A stretch of DNA of 64,000 nucleotides from Poriferisphaera corsica (GTDB lineage Bacteria; Planctomycetota; Phycisphaerae; Phycisphaerales; Phycisphaeraceae): contig NZ_CP036425.1 of the NCBI RefSeq assembly GCF_007747445.1, positions 3,890,175 to 3,954,174 of the forward strand. The letters run 5' to 3'. Position numbers and translations under genes: made by a program. Within the stretch, counting starts at the first letter, position 1, and every line of letters begins with the position of its first letter. A model generated the notes under the pieces. That model saw only the letters and a list, made by a program, of their open reading frames with translations. It was not told the DNA's origin and searched no databases. Of the stretch, positions 19,455 through 28,420 are shown piece by piece.

Positions 19455-21641
19455 TTATTCTGTGCTAAACAGCGACTTCATAAATGAACCTGAATCCTTC
19501 AAATCCATTCGGATGATTACATCCCTCATCAAGTCACTACTTACCACAATCTTTTTGCGTTCTTTCAGCCCATCGGTCATCGCATTCAAAAGCATCCGCT
19601 GAGCGTAATACTCAGGGGCATTTTTAAATGCCGCCAATTGTGCATCAAAGCTACGTGAAGCAGCCTGTTCTTCCAGAGCTCTGTCCCAACGATACGCACG
19701 TGCTTCTTGAAGCATCTGTGCTGCACGTCCACCAGCCCGATCCATCAGCGCTTCAATTTCAGCCTGCTTTTCCGCAAGGCCTTCATCACCACGACTCAAC
19801 TTGATCGTTTCTAATTGATCAATCGCAGCACTGATCGCAAGCGCTTTACCCTGGGTACCAGCCACCTCAGATAGCGTTTGAATCGCATCTTTCTGAGCGT
19901 TCTGAATCACGATTTGCTTATCTTGATGTGCACCATTCTGTTCATGGAATGCCTTAGCCACATCACCGTCCTGCGGCGGATGTATCGAAGCAAAACCAAC
20001 AAACACCACCTCAATACCTAACCCAACATGCCCATCCACAATGACGTCATCAACATCATCTTGAATTAGCCCTTTCAGTTCATTCGCCCCAAATGCACGC
20101 CCCTCACCCACAAGCATGTCAATATCTTTACCTGCGATATAATCGCTCAATCGCTCCACAGCCAACGCCTTCAGCATCTTGTCGGGACGTTCAACCGTCG
20201 AAACAAACTGTTCCAGATTCTTAATCCGGTAATCCACCACCATCTCGATCCCAACCAATTCACCCGCCACTGAAGACCCGTGAGCTTCATGGAAACCTGG
20301 ATCTTCATTTTTATCTTCATTGGTCTTCGGTGCGATGACCATATAATCCTCAGCACCTCGAGCATGTGCATTCGTCCAAAGCACCTCTGGCGTATGATCA
20401 AATCGATAAATAGCCAATCGATTCGCCATCTCTCGGTTAATATCTTCGAGCATCACCTTGATCGGATCGCGGCGGCTCGCTTGCTTACGCTCTGTATCTG
20501 ATGACCCCACCACTATCCGTTGGATACGATCAACGTCATATTTCTCACTCGTACCAATCGGCCAAGGCATCTTAAAATGGAAGCCCGGCCCTTCAATACG
20601 ATCAATCTTCCCATACGACATGATCACTGCCTGCTGCTGCGGCTCAACAATCGTCAAGCTCGACAACAACACCAGCAATATCAAACCGATCACAACCAGC
20701 TTAGGCATCGATTTGTTCAACAGCTCCATAAACCAGCTGCGTGAAATCTCAAAACCAAACTGATAATTCAGCGTTTCACCAATAATCTTGCTGATCGATT
20801 CAGGACGTGTCAGCCAACCCAAAACGCGTGAATCAAACGCCGGCCTCACAACCTCATTCGTTCGGCGAGGACGATACATTCCAAACACATACGAAAGCAC
20901 AATCTCAAGACCTAGTAGCACCATAATCGCCGGAACTATCAGCGATAATGCAACAAAGCCCATCTTATGCTCTGGATTCACCAGCACCGGGATCGTACCC
21001 GCAAACAACATCAACAACACAACCGCCACATTGCCGATCATGTATGACGCACCACCTCGTAGCGGCTGCCACTCCTTAACCTTCGTCATACCCGCCACAT
21101 AGCGCGCCGTCAGGAACCCTAAGAATGCGATCGCACCCAAAAGGAACAGAAGCACCAATGGATTTGCATTCGGACTAATCGAGGCCGCAACCAGATCTTT
21201 CCAATTAGCTGCCTCCCCATCAATCCGCTCAACCATCCCGTTGGCTTTATACAACAAGAACCCGCCCAACGTGAGCAGGTACAATGACAATGCAAGGCTA
21301 ACACCATTCAGCCAGTACTTATACAGATTGTCCAAACGCTTACGAGCGACATGCAACTGCTGCCCCGCCTCATTAAAGAGGGCCGCAGCTTCCGCATCCA
21401 CCTCAGCCAATTGCTCAGCTTCTAATGCTTCAACGCGCTCTTGCTTATGTGCGTTAAATAACGCCCACAAGATGAACCATACCGGCACACCGCCTAGGAA
21501 GTACCAGATCGTCGCGTCAATCGCAGCTGATCCGTAAATCAGGCCAATGATCACCACAACCATCGCTAGGAAGATCTGAGCGATCATTCCAAACATGGCC
21601 GCATTCGCAGCACGCTTGTAAGTCTGCTGGTCGTTGCTCAT
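19455..21641 (-). CDS. Large polytopic SPFH protein (7 TM plus band-7 domain), 728 aa
   Basis: An unusual band-7 protein. About 330 residues with seven predicted membrane helices (roughly 15-36, 43-62, 111-132, 161-182, 200-221, 228-254, 313-333) and a coiled coil (66-105) precede the SPFH domain, which starts at EPQQQAVIMSYGKI and contains GPGFHFKMPWPIG. The region 520-690 is Ala/Glu-rich coiled coil. Normal HflK/HflC proteins have one membrane helix. It is the first gene of the leftward cluster, 96 nt before the HflC-like gene. The extra helices may enlarge a membrane microdomain. Confidence 0.82.
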   Translation of the reverse strand: MSNDQQTYKRAANAAMFGMIAQIFLAMVVVIIGLIYGSAAIDATIWYFLGGVPVWFILWALFNAHKQERVEALEAEQLAEVDAEAAALFNEAGQQLHVARKRLDNLYKYWLNGVSLALSLYLLTLGGFLLYKANGMVERIDGEAANWKDLVAASISPNANPLVLLFLLGAIAFLGFLTARYVAGMTKVKEWQPLRGGASYMIGNVAVVLLMLFAGTIPVLVNPEHKMGFVALSLIVPAIMVLLGLEIVLSYVFGMYRPRRTNEVVRPAFDSRVLGWLTRPESISKIIGETLNYQFGFEISRSWFMELLNKSMPKLVVIGLILLVLLSSLTIVEPQQQAVIMSYGKIDRIEGPGFHFKMPWPIGTSEKYDVDRIQRIVVGSSDTERKQASRRDPIKVMLEDINREMANRLAIYRFDHTPEVLWTNAHARGAEDYMVIAPKTNEDKNEDPGFHEAHGSSVAGELVGIEMVVDYRIKNLEQFVSTVERPDKMLKALAVERLSDYIAGKDIDMLVGEGRAFGANELKGLIQDDVDDVIVDGHVGLGIEVVFVGFASIHPPQDGDVAKAFHEQNGAHQDKQIVIQNAQKDAIQTLSEVAGTQGKALAISAAIDQLETIKLSRGDEGLAEKQAEIEALMDRAGGRAAQMLQEARAYRWDRALEEQAASRSFDAQLAAFKNAPEYYAQRMLLNAMTDGLKERKKIVVSSDLMRDVIIRMDLKDSGSFMKSLFSTE

Positions 21642-22101: not shown

Positions 22102-23178
22102 ATGTTTGGCCAACTTCTCACTATTACACGTAATACTTTCACCGAGTCCATCAGGCAGCCCATCTTCGCTGTCCTCATCCTGGTCGGTATCCTCGGCCTC
22201 TGGCTCAATCTCAACCTCGCCGCATATACCATGGATCAAGACTCCAAAATGATGATCGACATGGGGCTCTCCACCGTCGCCATCATCTCACTACTCGCTG
22301 CCGCTTTCACAGCAACCGGCGTCCTCTCCTCTGAAATCGAGAAAAAAACCGTCCTCACAGTGGTCTCAAAACCCATCTCACGCCCCACCTTCGTCGTCGG
22401 TAAATTCCTCGGCGTTGCTGGCGCCATCCTCCTCGCCTACTACATTCTCTCACTCGTCTTCCTCCTCACCGCCCGACACGGCGTCATGCAGACCGCATCC
22501 CACCGCATCGACTGGCCCGTCGTCGTTTTCGGCCTTGGCGGCGCTTTCATCGCCATCGCCTTCGCCGCTTTCACAAACTACAACTTCCGCTGGGTCTTTA
22601 CCTCAACCGTCACATGGGCGCTCGCCATCACCGAAACTATCGCCTTTCTCCTCATCCTCTTCATTGGCAAAAAATGGGCCATCCAAACCCCATACCACGA
22701 CCTTTTCAGCCTTGATCCCAAAGCCCCCCAGCTCATGCAAGTCATAACAGGCACCGGCCTTATATCATTTGCCATCCTCATCATCACCGCCATCGCCGTG
22801 GCTGCATCAACCCGCCTCGGCCAGGTCATGACCATCCTCCTCTCCTTCGGCTTCTTCGCCCTAGGCCTCATCTCCAACTCACTCAACCAACTCACCAATC
22901 AGCGGCTCGAAATCTCACCACACATCGGATTCTTTGAATCTTTCTCACACATCTTCGCTGCCGACGCCCCCTTCTACACCAAACTCATCTACGCTGCCGC
23001 TAAAAGCATCTATCTCATCACCCCCAACATGCAATTGCTCTGGCCCGGCGACGCACTCCTTCAGGACAAACCTTTTACGCTCATCGCCTTCATGACGCCC
23101 GCCATCTACGGCATCCTCTTCACCGCAGCCATCCTCGCCATCGCTGTCGCGCTCTTCCAAAAACGCGAAGTTGGCTAA
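22102..23178 (+). CDS. ABC-2 type permease, 358 aa
   Basis: Membrane subunit of an ABC exporter, with about six hydrophobic segments (roughly 18-40, 55-78, 107-130, 142-160, 175-196, 235-260, plus a C-terminal one at 330-350). EIEKKTVLTVVSKPISRPTFVVGKF is the typical amphipathic coupling segment of the NosY/GldF-like group. No ATPase gene follows it, so it may use the ATPase encoded divergently at 15547-16752; this is an inference. Two hairpins and the first copy of the hairpin repeat follow. Confidence 0.85.
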   Translation: MFGQLLTITRNTFTESIRQPIFAVLILVGILGLWLNLNLAAYTMDQDSKMMIDMGLSTVAIISLLAAAFTATGVLSSEIEKKTVLTVVSKPISRPTFVVGKFLGVAGAILLAYYILSLVFLLTARHGVMQTASHRIDWPVVVFGLGGAFIAIAFAAFTNYNFRWVFTSTVTWALAITETIAFLLILFIGKKWAIQTPYHDLFSLDPKAPQLMQVITGTGLISFAILIITAIAVAASTRLGQVMTILLSFGFFALGLISNSLNQLTNQRLEISPHIGFFESFSHIFAADAPFYTKLIYAAAKSIYLITPNMQLLWPGDALLQDKPFTLIAFMTPAIYGILFTAAILAIAVALFQKREVG

Positions 23179-23355: not shown

Positions 23356-23383
23356 AAAAAAAACCGGTCACTTCCGTAACCGG
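23356..23383 (-). terminator. Rho-independent terminator of the receiver-like gene
   Basis: Leftward transcript: an 8-bp stem with one G-U pair closed by a GGAA (GNRA) tetraloop, followed by eight U (A at 23356-23363). It lies 27 nt beyond the stop codon at 23410. Confidence 0.85.
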
Positions 23384-23409
23384 CTGTTCATTTCGTTAAT
23401 TTTTATCAA

Positions 23410-24570
23410 TCAATCATCTTCACCCTCAATCTCACCAAACCCAAAATCAATCCCCCAATCTTCTTGATCATCATCTTCACCGCCCCAATCTTCAACTTCA
23501 GGCGTAAACCGATGATGAACACGAATCACGCGTGATAGCGCTTCCGCCAACAGCGGCCCCACTGCCCCACTCATTTCAACACCACCATCTTCAAACGGCT
23601 CATTACAATCTCTAAACAACACCATCACCGCCAATGTTTCACCACCATGACGGCACGCCACCGCAACAACATGACTATCCGCCAAATAAGCCGCATCGTC
23701 ACCAATCCAATACTTCAGTGTTTCATTATCTGTCACATGCAACAGATCTTCACGTGCCGCAACTTTCGGCGCCACCACATCCGCCAAGTGCTGCAACAAC
23801 ATATCCGCACTATCCGCAGCACAATCATAATTCACATACCCACCCAAACTATATTCATCCATCGCACTCGGCAAGAAGATCGCCGCATTCGTCGGCCCAA
23901 CCTTCTCGATCATGTGCTCTAATGTCGTCCGTAACAAATTCTCTAAATCAAGCTCTTCACGTATCAGCGCACTGTACTCACTCGTCTGCACAACCTGCTG
24001 CATCTGACAAGCTAATTCCTGATACGCCATCACCAAATCATTGCACAACACATCGACCTGCTGCGATACATCCTGCCTTGCTTGATTCAATTTCTTACAC
24101 AACCTTTTCAACCGATCCACTCGCCCTACATGATCATCATGCTTCAAGTGCTTCGCCACCATCCCATTCAAGCATCGCGTGACATCCCCAGTATCCACCG
24201 GCCTCTTCACAAAATCACAAACGCCGATCCGCATCCCCACAATCACCTCATCAGCATTCGGCTCATCACCCACCACCGAAGCATAAACATCCCCCTTACC
24301 CTGACTCAACTCTTCAACAAAATCCAGCCCATATCCATCGGGCAAACTCATCTCAACCATCACCATATCAAAACGCTCGCCCAACACGCATCCGCGCGCC
24401 TCAGCCAACGTCTTCACATGCTTCACATTGAGTTCAACTCGGCGATCCTGATACTCCCTCACCGACTTCAACACATCGTCCCCAGGATCCACGACCAGCA
24501 GACTTACCGCCTTCTTCGCTTCACCTAATCTCTTATTCCGGCTTTTCGCCGTCTTAGCCTGATGACTCAC
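23410..24570 (-). CDS. Pseudo-receiver protein with coiled coil and GAF-like domain
   Basis: Residues 21-140 follow the CheY/receiver fold (SLLVVD...FDMVMVEMSLPDGYG...DFVKRP). Glu73 occupies the phosphoacceptor position and the acidic pocket is reduced (D28-P29), while the Lys of the KP motif (K122) is kept. It is probably not phosphorylated normally and may be locked by Glu. A coiled coil (about 145-185), a GAF-like domain (about 195-345) and an acidic tail follow. GTG 24570 has AGGAG 6 nt upstream. It is the third gene of a leftward signalling cluster. Confidence 0.78.
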   Translation of the reverse strand: MSHQAKTAKSRNKRLGEAKKAVSLLVVDPGDDVLKSVREYQDRRVELNVKHVKTLAEARGCVLGERFDMVMVEMSLPDGYGLDFVEELSQGKGDVYASVVGDEPNADEVIVGMRIGVCDFVKRPVDTGDVTRCLNGMVAKHLKHDDHVGRVDRLKRLCKKLNQARQDVSQQVDVLCNDLVMAYQELACQMQQVVQTSEYSALIREELDLENLLRTTLEHMIEKVGPTNAAIFLPSAMDEYSLGGYVNYDCAADSADMLLQHLADVVAPKVAAREDLLHVTDNETLKYWIGDDAAYLADSHVVAVACRHGGETLAVMVLFRDCNEPFEDGGVEMSGAVGPLLAEALSRVIRVHHRFTPEVEDWGGEDDDQEDWGIDFGFGEIEGEDD

Positions 24571-24794
24571 AGCTTTCTCCTGCTACCGCATCCTGCGTGA
24601 ACATCTTCTATAATCGCAACCGTCTTTAAAGCTGAAAATCCATTTGATTCTCATTCTTGCCGCAACGATCACTTGGTCAACGAGGATGTTATTTCGCAAA
24701 ACGCATTAAACGATCCCATGCACTCTACCGATCCACGTGTATCCCTAAACACATGGGCCTCCTCGGCAGAGTCTCCGCTTTTCACATCGTCAAC
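24571..24794. other. Gap within the signalling cluster with a short repeat
   Basis: 224 bp between the kinase stop and the receiver-like start. It contains a ~37-base stretch (24673-24709) that resembles 60214-60251, including a shared TTATTTCGCAAAACGC. No gene is seen. Confidence 0.5.
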
Positions 24795-27185
24795 CTATGC
24801 CGCACAATCCAGCGGCAACCTCAACGTTGCAACAGTTCCTTCACCCAACGCACTTGCCAATTCCAAACAACCGTTATGACCCTCAATAAACTGCTGCGCA
24901 CGCGTTAAACCCATCCCAACCCGACGCCCCGCCGCCTTCGCGCTAAAGAACGGATCCTTCGCATGTCCCAACGTCCGATCATCCATCCCTTCACCATCAT
25001 CCTTCACCTTCACCTCAACCCATCGCCCATCATTGGTCACACCAACCCGAATCTCCACCCCATCCCCCGGCTTCGATTGCACCGCATTATGCAACAGCTC
25101 ACTCACCGCCGTCTGAATCTGATCCACATCCATACGCACACGCGGCACACCATCCTTCATCTTCAAGAAAATCGGCGTCTCACTCTGCCACTTCCCATAA
25201 TGCGACTGCACCTTCTTCACCGTACTATTCAACAGAAGCGACATATCCGCCTCCACAAACTCCGGCTCAGGTGGATCCGCAAACAAGTGCAACGCCGTAA
25301 TCAAATCACTCAACCGGTGACTCTCCATATAAATCCGCTGCGCCGCCTTCTGCTCCTTACTACCACTCGCAAGCGTCATCGAAAGCAACTGACTACGACC
25401 ACTAATCACCGCAAGCGGGTTATTCATCTCATGCGCAGCCCCTGCCGCCATCTCACCCAATCTCGCCATCGATTCTTGCTGCAACAACTTATCTTGCGCC
25501 TCAGCTAATGCACTATTAGACTCAGCAAGCTCCTCACCTAATCTTCGCGCGCCGTCATGCTGCTCAGCCGCCGCAATCGCACTACCCCAAACACTGACCA
25601 ACGTCTCCATCAACCCCCATTTTGGTAGCACACTACGATCATGCAGCAACACACCGACCGTTCCCCATCCACAACGAAGCGGGATCAATCGCACCCGTCT
25701 CAAATCTTCCGATCCAATCAAAAAATCCTGCACCCAAGGCAGCACGCCCATCATGCTCATCCCCACTGGCTCACTCAGATCTAATTCCCTCAGATCCGGC
25801 GCACCATACGGCACATCCACGCACTGTGAATCCACCACTTGCCCATCCGTCCGATATCGACTCACCAACCAACTCGTCCCACCATCATTTAAATCCTTAG
25901 ATGGCCTAACGACTGAATAGAATCCCGCCCCCAATAATTCCTTCGCATTCATCACAACACTGTCAATTACATCCTGAACCCCTTGCCCCGGCATTGCCCG
26001 GCTATGGAAACGTGACACCGCCTCCAAAATCTGACTCTGCTGCTGTGCGACTCGCCCCTTATTTTCAAGCGCATAATTCACCCGGCCTAAAGCTTGATTC
26101 GCCTTCTGGATCGACTGTAACAGCAAATCTTTCGACGGCTGATCATGTACGCCAAGCGCCTTACCCCGACGCTCTAACTGATCATGCAGTTGATCCAAAG
26201 CCCAATCCACATGCTGCCGCTTCACCCCAACCTTTTCCATCAACACTTCAACTTGCTGCTTGAAATGATAGTTCCCCGAATAACCCAGGTGCTGTTGACG
26301 TGTCAATAAATCTGCCAAACTAACCAGCCCCACCATCCGACGGTGCGGCAACTCCGGCAACGTCTCATATGGCGAACCATGCAACCAAATACAATCCTGC
26401 AATCGGTGAGGCAACCCCCACTGCTCAGCCATCCGCTTACCCGCCGTATGATGATCAATCCCCACAATCCGCCGTTCATACGACGCGATATTCCCATGAT
26501 TCATCTCCACCAACTCCACCACGCGCGCATAACTTTTCGGCAAAACATAATCCAGCGCCAACTTACCCACATCATGCAACAACCCACAAACAAACGCCTC
26601 ATCAGCGCTTAGACTCCGCTCATTCCCCGCCGCCTTCGCAATCAATTCCGCGACAACACCTACCGCCAAACTGTGCACCCAGAACCCCGCATGATCAAAG
26701 CCCGCTTCTTCACGTGACTCCTGCTCCACAGCCACCCCGCCCCCTACTTTCGCAATCACAACACCATCCGTATCATCACCACACAACACCGCCGACGCAT
26801 CACTCTCATCATGCACCGCAACCTGCCCCACATGCTTACCACCACCAACATCTTGCTTCTTCTCTTTACCTTTCTGAAAAAACTCCATCACCTTAATCGA
26901 CAACACCGCATTGCGTATCGTATTGAAACCCAAAAGAACAACCGCTTTATCAACCGTCAATATATCCTCGCGCAATCCCTTGTCCGCAGCGCGGCACAAC
27001 GACAAAACCTTCGCCGTTAGCGCCGGGTCAGCCTGCACCAATTCAATCACCTCACGCGCATGCGTCTCGTCTGATGCCGTCAACGACAGCAACCGCGTCG
27101 CAATCACCGGCAAAGTCGGCAACGAATCTATCTGCCTCAAGATCAGCTCAATCCTCTTCGGCCTGCTCACCTCTTGCGCTGTCAT
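24795..27185 (-). CDS. HDOD domain / GAF-like / histidine kinase hybrid
   Basis: A cytosolic sensor kinase of 796 residues. The HDOD domain (about 12-285) contains LLHDVGKLAL (202-211) and DHHTAG, and carries a ~60-residue polar insertion (about 104-164) absent from simple HDOD proteins. A GAF-like region (about 350-520) and a coiled coil follow. The kinase core has phosphoacceptor His585 in GAAHEMNNPL, N box ELLHNAV (~697), DDGEGM (~729) and GMGLTRAQ. I chose ATG 27185 for AGGAG 7-8 nt upstream; an in-frame TTG 27 nt earlier is unlikely. Flanked by an HTH-receiver and a pseudo-receiver, it is probably their partner. Confidence 0.88.
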   Translation of the reverse strand: MTAQEVSRPKRIELILRQIDSLPTLPVIATRLLSLTASDETHAREVIELVQADPALTAKVLSLCRAADKGLREDILTVDKAVVLLGFNTIRNAVLSIKVMEFFQKGKEKKQDVGGGKHVGQVAVHDESDASAVLCGDDTDGVVIAKVGGGVAVEQESREEAGFDHAGFWVHSLAVGVVAELIAKAAGNERSLSADEAFVCGLLHDVGKLALDYVLPKSYARVVELVEMNHGNIASYERRIVGIDHHTAGKRMAEQWGLPHRLQDCIWLHGSPYETLPELPHRRMVGLVSLADLLTRQQHLGYSGNYHFKQQVEVLMEKVGVKRQHVDWALDQLHDQLERRGKALGVHDQPSKDLLLQSIQKANQALGRVNYALENKGRVAQQQSQILEAVSRFHSRAMPGQGVQDVIDSVVMNAKELLGAGFYSVVRPSKDLNDGGTSWLVSRYRTDGQVVDSQCVDVPYGAPDLRELDLSEPVGMSMMGVLPWVQDFLIGSEDLRRVRLIPLRCGWGTVGVLLHDRSVLPKWGLMETLVSVWGSAIAAAEQHDGARRLGEELAESNSALAEAQDKLLQQESMARLGEMAAGAAHEMNNPLAVISGRSQLLSMTLASGSKEQKAAQRIYMESHRLSDLITALHLFADPPEPEFVEADMSLLLNSTVKKVQSHYGKWQSETPIFLKMKDGVPRVRMDVDQIQTAVSELLHNAVQSKPGDGVEIRVGVTNDGRWVEVKVKDDGEGMDDRTLGHAKDPFFSAKAAGRRVGMGLTRAQQFIEGHNGCLELASALGEGTVATLRLPLDCAA

Positions 27186-27363
27186 CCTCAAATCTCCTGA
27201 ACCCTCTGACAAATTCTATTCACTCAATAGATATGCGCACTTCTCGCGCGCAATCCCCTTACCTAAACTTAATCGTCACCCTCAAACCCTAACTCAAGCA
27301 CAATCCGCACAATCGCTACCTTTTATCACACTCACCAAAACCTCGCACCAACATAAACCAACG

Positions 27364-27386
27364 AAAAACCGCGACTCAAGCCGCGG
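27364..27386 (-). terminator. Probable terminator of the HTH-receiver gene
   Basis: Leftward transcript: a CCGCG/CGCGG stem with an 8-nt loop followed by U5 (A at 27364-27368). A second stem, CTTAAAAC/GTTTTAAG, lies nearer the stop at 27428-27452. Confidence 0.6.
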
Positions 27387-27478
27387 CCTCATCATCCTCC
27401 TCCGCCATGCTTAGCGAAGGATTCAATCTTAAAACACTTCGCGCGTTTTAAGCTCCCTATTCTCATTCATTCAATTCA

Positions 27479-28093
27479 TCAAGCCGCAACCGCAAGCAGC
27501 GTTTCTATTCGCTCTTGCAAGTTCTCAATATTAAACGGCTTCTTAATGAACTCATCCGCGCCCGACTGCAACAATTCATGAACCTCATCCTGGTTTACAA
27601 CACCCGACACAATAATGATCTTCATATTCACAAGATCCGGATTCTTCCTCACCGTCTCGCAAACTTTGTTCCCATTAATATCTGGCAACATGTAATCCAA
27701 AATCATCAGGTCAGGCTTAAACTGCTCCGTCATAATCCCCGCATCATAACCCGTGCTCGCCGTCTTCACTTCATAATGCTCATTACGACTCAGCACATCG
27801 ACAAACAATTCAACAATCTGTTCATCATCATCCACCACCAACAGCTTACGCTTCTGGCCACTACCTTTTTCACCAAGCGCCTCAACCGGAATCCCATTCT
27901 CCTGCATGAACTTGAGTAGCTCATCACGAGGTATCCGCCTAAATCGACTACCTGGCACGCGAAACCCATTCAAACGACCACTATCAAAACAACGGATAAT
28001 TGTCTGCTGCGAAACCTTACAGATCTCCGCTGCTTCACCCGTCGTAAATACTTGTTTTCCACTCAGATCAGTCGGTGCTTCATTAGCGCTCAT
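27479..28093 (-). CDS. Response regulator with N-terminal excisionase-like HTH
   Basis: A DNA-binding response regulator with the domain order reversed from the usual one. A MerR/excisionase-like helix-turn-helix lies at about residues 14-65 (FTTGEAAEICKVSQQTIIRCFDSG...FRVPGSRFRRI) and a complete receiver at 83-204: VDDD (87-90), phosphoacceptor Asp133 in LMILDYMLPD, Ser163 and Lys185 of KKPF. All catalytic residues are present. It is the first gene of the leftward signalling cluster, so the HDOD kinase downstream is the likely phosphodonor. DNA targets are unknown. Confidence 0.88.
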   Translation of the reverse strand: MSANEAPTDLSGKQVFTTGEAAEICKVSQQTIIRCFDSGRLNGFRVPGSRFRRIPRDELLKFMQENGIPVEALGEKGSGQKRKLLVVDDDEQIVELFVDVLSRNEHYEVKTASTGYDAGIMTEQFKPDLMILDYMLPDINGNKVCETVRKNPDLVNMKIIIVSGVVNQDEVHELLQSGADEFIKKPFNIENLQERIETLLAVAA

Positions 28094-28420
28094 GGTCTGC
28101 TCACTCTTTCTTTTCGTCTTCTTTCACCAAGACGTTTTCATCACATCGCCCGAAAATGGCTCTCCCACCCCAAACCAAATACTTAGCACGCCCTCCCTAA
28201 TTTACCTACCTTTACATCGTCCCACCCTGTTACCAACTTTACACGCATCCTGCCCACGCTTTATTTTTTCTTTCCTTAGCCTTCCATCTACAGAAAACCC
28301 AGACCCGTCTTCTCCAATTTAGTTCATCAGCTAACATCCCCAGACAATCCTCTACAACGTCAACCATAGACTCACCAGTACGCCCGACATCCCATTCCTG
28401 AACAATTTCCTTCTGACTTC

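Follow-up and report, generated by a model that had tools for sequence, protein, structure and literature searches.

What does a histidine kinase that carries an HDOD domain sense, and which of its neighbours does it control? The question is raised by three genes within a 64,000-nucleotide stretch of the Poriferisphaera corsica genome (the window; NZ_CP036425.1, positions 3,890,175 to 3,954,174; G000:C1:3890175-3954174), a genome that consists of a single contig of 4,291,168 bases. The genes are read leftward and were found where the first-pass annotation had placed them; all features described below lie on the minus strand unless stated otherwise. The first (27479..28093) is an open reading frame (ORF) of 204 amino acids that encodes a regulator with an excisionase/BldC-like helix-turn-helix (HTH) followed by a canonical receiver (HTHRR), with D133 as the predicted phosphoacceptor. 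The second, the HDOD kinase (24795..27212), is an ORF of 805 amino acids with a TTG start (alternative ATG at 27185) and the order HDOD, GAF-like region, HisKA and HATPase. The third (24570 down to 23410, i.e., 23410..24570) is an ORF of 386 amino acids with a GTG start and encodes a pseudo-receiver protein (PRR) made up of a degenerate receiver, a 77-residue helix and a GAF domain. HTHRR, HDOD kinase and PRR are a conserved signalling unit, in which sequence comparison supports the kinase as the partner of HTHRR, a regulator that it very probably controls. We consider it probable that the locus is one motile-stage two-component system of the Phycisphaerae, linked to cyclic di-GMP (c-di-GMP), whose phosphodiesterase arm has been trimmed to a GAF helper. 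Overall, the first-pass annotation of a kinase coupled to an HTH-first regulator and a pseudo-receiver was partly supported.

The signalling unit and its kinase-regulator pair

Among the best 79 kinase loci of the genome collection, the immediate upstream neighbour of the HDOD kinase was HTHRR in 72 and its immediate downstream neighbour was PRR in 72, and the suggested co-conservation of the three genes across genomes was thus observed. Ten of the 14 misses were at contig ends. Three HTHRR misses (L030, L060, L084) had only 18-174 bases available before the kinase, and the other four (L043, L045, L048, L049) form one clade and represent one change on the kinase tree; an HTHRR with an intact receiver was present elsewhere (L096, L099) in G172 and G107, the genomes matched to two of these four loci. 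In all seven PRR misses the contig stops at most 392 bases past the kinase, except at L017, where 672 bases follow and the PRR match is cut by the contig end. Median gaps were 43 bases between HTHRR and kinase (n = 72) and 70 bases between kinase and PRR (n = 71, L085 left out), with longer gaps of 266 and 224 bases, respectively, in the window. At L085 (2009-5506) kinase and PRR share one open frame of 1165 residues, which was not counted; as its near relative L086 has kinase and PRR apart, a natural fusion and a sequence error are not distinguishable. The genes flanking the trio differ among lineages, which marks the trio itself as the unit.

Pfam assigned HTHRR an HTH_17 domain (6.8e-11) followed by Response_reg (8.9e-25), the order that the first-pass annotation had described. 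Mean identity to the window was 85% for the HTH domain (27887..28057; residues 13-69; 71 relatives) and 68% for the receiver domain (27494..27847; residues 83-200), with the response-regulator residue set D88, D89, D133, S163 and K185 present in 73/73. Loci with missing trio members were fetched for a comparison of HTHRRs after kinase loss. The receiver signature DDDSK was found in 109/109 sequences accompanied by a kinase core (the window and 72 loci, eight loci of f50, f91 and f100, 19 further loci of the class, G246, G252, two unlinked cases and five f15 loci). Without a kinase core the signature was altered in 10 of 12 HTHRRs: G161 (DSDGK), G240 (DDDGK), G249 (GVNV-), G294 (GRSTG), G273 (TAAIS), G036 (ANDSK), G133 (GSGSD), G066 (DEDGK), and G237 and G282 (both DDDTK). 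The G133 HTHRR lies near a contig end and its genome is absent among the kinase matches listed. The altered cases were spread over f2, f3, f4, f10 and f14, and HTH identity to the window in the 12 kinase-less HTHRRs was still 72-86%. A Fisher test of receiver state against kinase core gave 8e-13 (104 and 12 rows), a value that overstates the evidence because the rows are related and hand-selected. As the receiver is altered without the kinase and the HTH is kept, the simplest reading is that the kinase keeps the HTHRR receiver functional and that DNA binding would persist without it. This is a clear case of a receiver domain that decays once its kinase is gone, with the DNA-binding domain still conserved, and together with the conserved gene order it supports the coupling of kinase and regulator that had been proposed from the window.

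At two loci, L171 (G237) and L172 (G282), the HDOD kinase gene has no ATPase; HDOD and a remnant of HisKA persist, still between HTHRR and PRR. The P. corsica genome also encodes a second HTH-receiver paralogue of 44% identity (L087, G000:C1:4145000-4156000) near menaquinone-biosynthesis-like and moeA genes, with no kinase match on the stretch fetched; relatives of this paralogue also occur in several flagellin-less genomes.

HTHRR matches were obtained in 264 of 298 genomes of the class at E <= 1e-20, paralogues included, and PRR matches in 150 at E <= 1e-25. Kinase matches in 248 genomes (E <= 1e-20) are an upper bound, because the weakest are other kinases. In f50, f91 and f100, an HTHRR orthologue (58-63% identity) was followed directly by a kinase with a similar core and no HDOD match at 8/8 loci (seven of the eight scanned with Pfam), so the regulator-kinase pair exists also without an HDOD fusion. 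Outside the class, among the matches listed for 294 genomes of the phylum, full-length HDOD kinases came from three f57 genomes only. Three long HDOD frames of other planctomycetes that were checked all encode HDOD-GGDEF proteins, two of them with a GAF domain. Genome G090 has a second full-length HDOD-kinase match (G090:C2:53726-55999). In the open PubMed Central literature, searched by title or abstract start, no description of an HDOD kinase-HTHRR-PRR system was found.

The HDOD kinase and its candidate signal

Pfam recognized HDOD (4.3e-46, two stretches; 157 bits against a cut-off of 22.9), HisKA (7.1e-11) and HATPase_c (6.6e-18) in the kinase. The HDOD domain spans 26298..27158 (residues 19-305) and was present in 56/56 aligned kinases of the family; the fusion, which had been called uncommon, is therefore not rare in the class. 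The catalytic core consists of HisKA (25278..25460), with H594 as the predicted phospho-accepting residue, and HATPase_c (24810..25130). H594 and N598 were present in 80/80 proteins, and N709, D738, G740, G742, G766 and G768 in 79/80, the exception being a protein truncated at the end of a contig; the kinase thus has the H-box histidine of HisKA-type histidine kinases and the N and G boxes of the HATPase.

Between HDOD and HisKA lies a GAF-like region (25533..26045; about residues 390-560) that was not recognized by Pfam here or in any other family member (0/56). The AlphaFold model of the kinase (796 amino acids; mean predicted local distance difference test, pLDDT, 82.9) shows a GAF-like order of elements at about residues 403-586; this model and that of PRR were built with 56 and 59 sequences, respectively. 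A Foldseek search returned ZraS-type cores, the HDOD structures 3hc1, 3m1t and SadB, and photoreceptor-kinase structures among the best 50 matches, none of them specific to the GAF-like middle. Of the proposed HDOD-GAF-histidine kinase architecture, the HDOD and kinase domains are therefore recognized, and a GAF domain in the middle is plausible from the model. The 60-residue insertion that had been assigned to the HDOD domain is a variable linker and not a family feature. This loop (26703..26882; about residues 111-170) had pLDDT < 50 at model residues 116-159, and the spacing from S105 to W178 ranged from 23 to 72 residues over 80 proteins and exceeded 60 in three, so the insertion was rejected as a functional element.

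The HDOD of the kinase carries the H...HD...D metal-ligand set of HD phosphohydrolases (H180, H213, D214, D301). H180 and H213 were each present in 80/80 proteins, D214 in 77/80 and D301 in 64/80. In the three other strongest HDODs of the genome the first His is replaced by Q or R, and two show QD in place of HD; in alignments 3hc1 retained the H/HD/D set, which was broken in 3m1t, MmoQ and SadB. HDOD domains are described as lacking key active-site residues in the accessible part of PMC4114195, in line with the general statement of the first-pass annotation that they usually have no enzymatic activity. As the ligands are kept here, unlike in the other strongest HDODs of the genome, that statement may not apply to this kinase.

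The general description of HDODs would also fit a domain that acts only in dimerization or as a structural module, with the GAF-like region as the true sensor, and HDOD-less kinases do adjoin the same regulator family elsewhere. We regard this alternative as rather doubtful. Mean identity to the window was 60-61% for the HDOD and 64% for HisKA, 47% for HATPase and 39% for the GAF-like region, so the putative sensor of this alternative is less conserved than the HDOD, the HD ligands are near-invariant, and G237 and G282 lost the kinase ATPase but kept the HDOD. A sensory HDOD is thus our preferred reading, with c-di-GMP or a similar nucleotide as the leading guess for its signal, a type of signal that is favoured by the HD-GYP and GGDEF relatives in the family circle. 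The sensory role of HDOD domains is unsettled, and the HDOD-kinase unit makes the question testable.

Flagellin and the HTHRR promoter

Flagellin genes were searched with PF00669 (E <= 1e-12) in 80 hand-chosen genomes of the class, each at least 90% complete. Flagellin was present in 44/44 genomes with the HDOD kinase (43 plus G182, the latter without HTHRR beside the kinase) and in 12 of the 36 kinase-negative genomes, and the kinase was absent from all 24 flagellin-less genomes (Fisher test, 8e-12, uncorrected for kinship). The kinase-negative set includes G066, G096 and G018, whose weak matches near 1e-21 were counted as other kinases, and G231, G237 and G282, which have broken kinases. The flagellin-less genomes belong to f4 (10), f8 (8), f17 (3), f14 (2) and f3 (1). 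As kinase-positive members with flagella also occur in f3, f4, f8 and f14, at least four independent co-losses of flagellin and kinase are likely. The window genome and eight further handles were also flagellin-positive (9/9; two look like one genome). Because the trio accompanies flagella, it may contribute to the decision of these bacteria to swim.

A dyad search of 60 regions upstream of HTHRR found AGTC-N14-CCGA in 22, compared to none in two shuffles. Of the 72 HTHRR upstream regions, taken from 71 loci plus the window, 66 scored above 8 bits with the refined 40-base model, for which shuffles gave a 95th percentile of 2.7 and a maximum of 9.7; above 12 bits the model matched 1/77 kinase regions and 0/72 PRR regions. 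The core TNAAGT-N16-CGAT was present in 61 of 72 HTHRR upstream regions in one orientation, occurred once at N11 and was never on the opposite strand. At N16 it was found in 0/78 kinase and 0/73 PRR regions, where single matches occurred at other spacings or strands. In the window the element is a 40-mer at 28205..28244 with the core TAAAGT-N16-CGATGTAAA. The sigma-28 consensus is given as TAAAGTTT-n11-GCCGATAA in the available text of PMC2859248, and WhiG shares flagellar promoter specificity according to a passage of PMC8325347. Compared to the consensus, with GCCGATAA at -10 and TAAA(GT) at -35, the element has a spacer one base longer and mostly CCGATGT at -10 (ACGATGT in the window). Allowing for this extra base, it agrees with a sigma-28 (FliA/WhiG) promoter, and HTHRR is predicted to be transcribed from a promoter of this type. 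A perfect core was also found upstream of 2 of 25 flagellin genes and a third matched at 9 of 10 positions (shuffles 0% and 1.6%). An exact-pattern search gave 13 matches in four genomes compared to one for a reversed control; as a regulon search it was rejected, since only the four HTHRR promoters were consistent. A flagellar ATPase gene beside one of the FliA/WhiG-type sigma genes was likewise dropped, as it had no Pfam match.

Kinase and HTHRR could instead be cognate and serve a general state such as redox, stress or growth phase, with the flagellin link arising secondarily in lineages that shed many regulators and the upstream element acting as an autoregulatory operator instead of a sigma-28 promoter. 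In its favour, small f4 genomes account for many of the losses, the genome contains few exact copies of the element, and conservation extends past the promoter core into the downstream flank TGTAAA.TAGG. However, larger genomes (G066, 6.1 Mb; G067, 4.5 Mb) are also without flagellin and kinase, several flagellin-less genomes keep the HTHRR paralogue, spacing and orientation of the element are uniform in 61/72, and apart from one added spacer base its core agrees with the published sigma-28 consensus. We therefore judge the general-state explanation unlikely and retain a probable motile-stage role. Nothing on motility regulation in Phycisphaerae was found in the open literature by title or abstract start; a conserved unit with an HDOD kinase, HD-GYP relatives, a predicted sigma-28 promoter and many natural losses makes this regulation testable.

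The pseudo-receiver, its HD-GYP relatives and known systems

PRR was recognized by Pfam as Response_reg (3.9e-8) followed by GAF_2 (2e-4, below its cut-off). Its AlphaFold model (mean pLDDT 90.5) consists of a receiver (24205..24513; residues 20-122), a long helix of 77 residues (23962..24192; residues 127-203) and a GAF fold (23509..23946; residues 209-354), and over its full length Foldseek matched it to the REC-GAF portion of 6oap/6oaq, a dual sensor kinase, at a low overall TM-score of 0.31-0.35. The window PRR has D, P, E, G and R at the two acidic, phospho-Asp, T/S and Lys positions in place of the D/D/D/T/K of a phosphorylatable receiver, so the pseudo-receiver recognized in the first-pass annotation has lost more than its phosphosite. 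Among 73 PRRs an Asp was present at the phosphosite in 23 and absent in 50, with the complete set in five, and the kinase tree requires at least 16 switches in the state of this Asp (parsimony, which does not separate loss from gain). Mean identity to the window was 22% for the receiver, 49% for the helix and 52% for the GAF domain. The helix has two conserved cysteines, C158 and C176 (each in 70/73), for which a redox or metal role is possible. Cys176 was also considered as a kinase-docking mark, with Cys in 71/78 PRRs with a kinase and 6/14 without; this was rejected because only three independent pairs lie on supported branches, and the kinase-positive PRRs L065, L068, L080, L137, L138, L169 and L170 run counter to it.

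Relatives in two other families have a longer third protein. At five f15 loci (L231-L235, 5/5), HTHRR and HDOD kinase are followed by a 545-589-residue Response_reg-GAF-HD_5 protein with an HHE..DG.GYP motif, and at three f57 loci (L228-L230, 3/3), outside the class, a protein of the same REC-GAF-HD_5 architecture and with the same motif comes after the HDOD kinase. HD-GYP proteins are of the c-di-GMP phosphodiesterase type (PMC4114195, in the part available, and general knowledge). PRR is collinear with the receiver, helix and GAF domain of these REC-GAF-HD-GYP proteins, with 20% identity over 298 residues between window and L231 and 25% over 336 residues between L037 and L232; E-values came from an 18-sequence set and homology is judged by collinearity and gene position. 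Its occurrence in f57, beyond the class, makes the HD-GYP form probably the older one and PRR probably a shortened descendant. The HD-GYP relatives in f15 and f57 have complete receivers (DDDTK or DDDSK, 8/8), as do the f14 relatives of PRR (L124-L128; DDDTK in 5/5, with Pfam GAF in the three scanned, L124, L126 and L127); together with the five complete sets among the close PRRs, this suggests that the older protein was probably phosphorylated. The f7 relatives are short, with receiver and helix, and Pfam found only Response_reg in L119. That PRR is still a phosphate sink or a second phospho-target of the kinase is highly improbable, since the complete receivers of its relatives, which would favour it, are set against a window PRR in which phospho-Asp, T/S and Lys are all replaced, 50/73 PRRs without the Asp, and a receiver that is the least conserved part of the protein.

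These observations can be joined in one mechanism. RNA polymerase with a FliA/WhiG-type sigma factor would transcribe HTHRR from its promoter element. The soluble kinase would use its HDOD to sense an intracellular signal, for which a nucleotide messenger such as c-di-GMP, bound at the retained HD centre, is the most likely candidate, would autophosphorylate on H594, for which the motifs are present, and would phosphorylate D133 of HTHRR, a step supported by receiver decay after kinase loss. Once D133 is phosphorylated, the BldC-like HTH would bind DNA differently. Judging from the REC-GAF-HD-GYP domains of the third gene product in related families, the older system probably had a second output, a c-di-GMP phosphodiesterase, and PRR would be the GAF-based helper left after loss of this arm. 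The likely output is the swimmer programme, because the kinase is found only with flagellin genes. We advance more tentatively, and as doubtful in its entirety, a class-wide motile-stage switch in which an intact-HD HDOD reads c-di-GMP or a related nucleotide into a His-Asp relay that once drove a phosphodiesterase, which in most descendants has no enzyme and no phosphosite and is kept as a phosphorylation-independent helper. If true, it would give HDOD a defined sensory job.

Several observations weigh against the mechanism. Two kinase-less genomes have an intact HTHRR receiver, G231, in which the kinase is a remnant, and G064, in which a gap has no long open frame. Twelve flagellated genomes have no kinase, and the genomes compared are related and hand-chosen. 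The promoter core matches at 9-10 of 10 positions in only 3 of 25 flagellin upstream regions, and a single genome accounts for two of these; two sigma factors, at G000:C1:985870 and 1450460, score above the FliA_WhiG cut-off, either of which may be the flagellar one; nine exact matches other than at HTHRR, in the four genomes, precede unrelated or no clear genes, with no common target; and the element becomes weaker in f4 and other orders and is missing from the HDOD-less group. A terminator-like hairpin (27365..27390; consensus match only) separates HTHRR from the kinase; it may lower read-through to the kinase, so that HTHRR might be more abundant than the kinase. The stretches fetched beside the f57 kinases contained no HTHRR, and neither Pfam nor the AlphaFold model showed an HD-GYP domain in the window PRR. 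Finally, PRR outlives kinase and HTHRR in several genomes (L105, L106, L108, L109, L114 and L115 in G084, G137, G209, G243, G264 and G197, respectively, without either gene adjacent), which suggests that PRR also has a function of its own.

Behind PRR a second terminator-like hairpin (23362..23385; consensus match only) is a possible operon end. Beyond it in the window are an ABC-2 permease gene on the opposite strand (22102-23178) and, on the strand of the trio, a gene for a 728-amino-acid Band_7/SPFH protein (19455-21641). Elsewhere an FHA-GAF-HATPase protein recurs 3' of the trio in 13 loci and argininosuccinate lyase in 19 (e.g., L025 10710-12509 and L015 11932-13440), each identified by Pfam on one member. 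The solitary PRR gene of L109 lies beside TsaB-like and metallophosphatase genes and that of L115 near a metallophosphatase gene. Argininosuccinate lyase, FHA-GAF-HATPase and TsaB-like genes recur in parts of the set and were rejected as functional clues, being taken as lineage synteny. Recurring DnaE and HNH neighbours, identified by reading sequences only, we likewise presume to be lineage synteny.

The trio resembles classical two-component systems in its complete kinase motifs, canonical receiver, adjacent genes and a receiver integrity that tracks the kinase, but differs in a soluble kinase with HDOD input, an HTH before the receiver and a third, degenerate REC-helix-GAF member. PRR aligns with REC-GAF-HD-GYP regulators over receiver, helix and GAF domain and holds the same gene place, but is without the HD-GYP domain and, in most cases, without a phosphorylation site. 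The HDOD domain is shared with Pseudomonas SadB, Xanthomonas GsmR and Geobacter 3hc1; SadB binds c-di-GMP, and SadB and GsmR act on flagella (PMC6543031, from the text available). In the trio, in contrast, the HDOD is part of a histidine kinase fusion and retains the H/HD/D set; SadB, MmoQ and 3m1t lack parts of this set, and 3hc1 keeps it. The HDOD-GAF-GGDEF proteins of other planctomycetes have the HDOD in front like the kinase (GAF in 2/3), but end in GGDEF (diguanylate cyclase) instead of a kinase. The 50/73 PRR receivers without a phospho-Asp resemble the aspartate-less receivers described in part of PMC4395418, from which they differ in that 23/73 PRRs keep the Asp and five the whole set, with repeated switching within one orthologous family. 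With the BldC-type MerR-like regulators, as portrayed in an extract of PMC5859096, HTHRR shares the short MerR/excisionase-like class of HTH; the likeness is one of HTH class only, and HTHRR, unlike them, carries a receiver.

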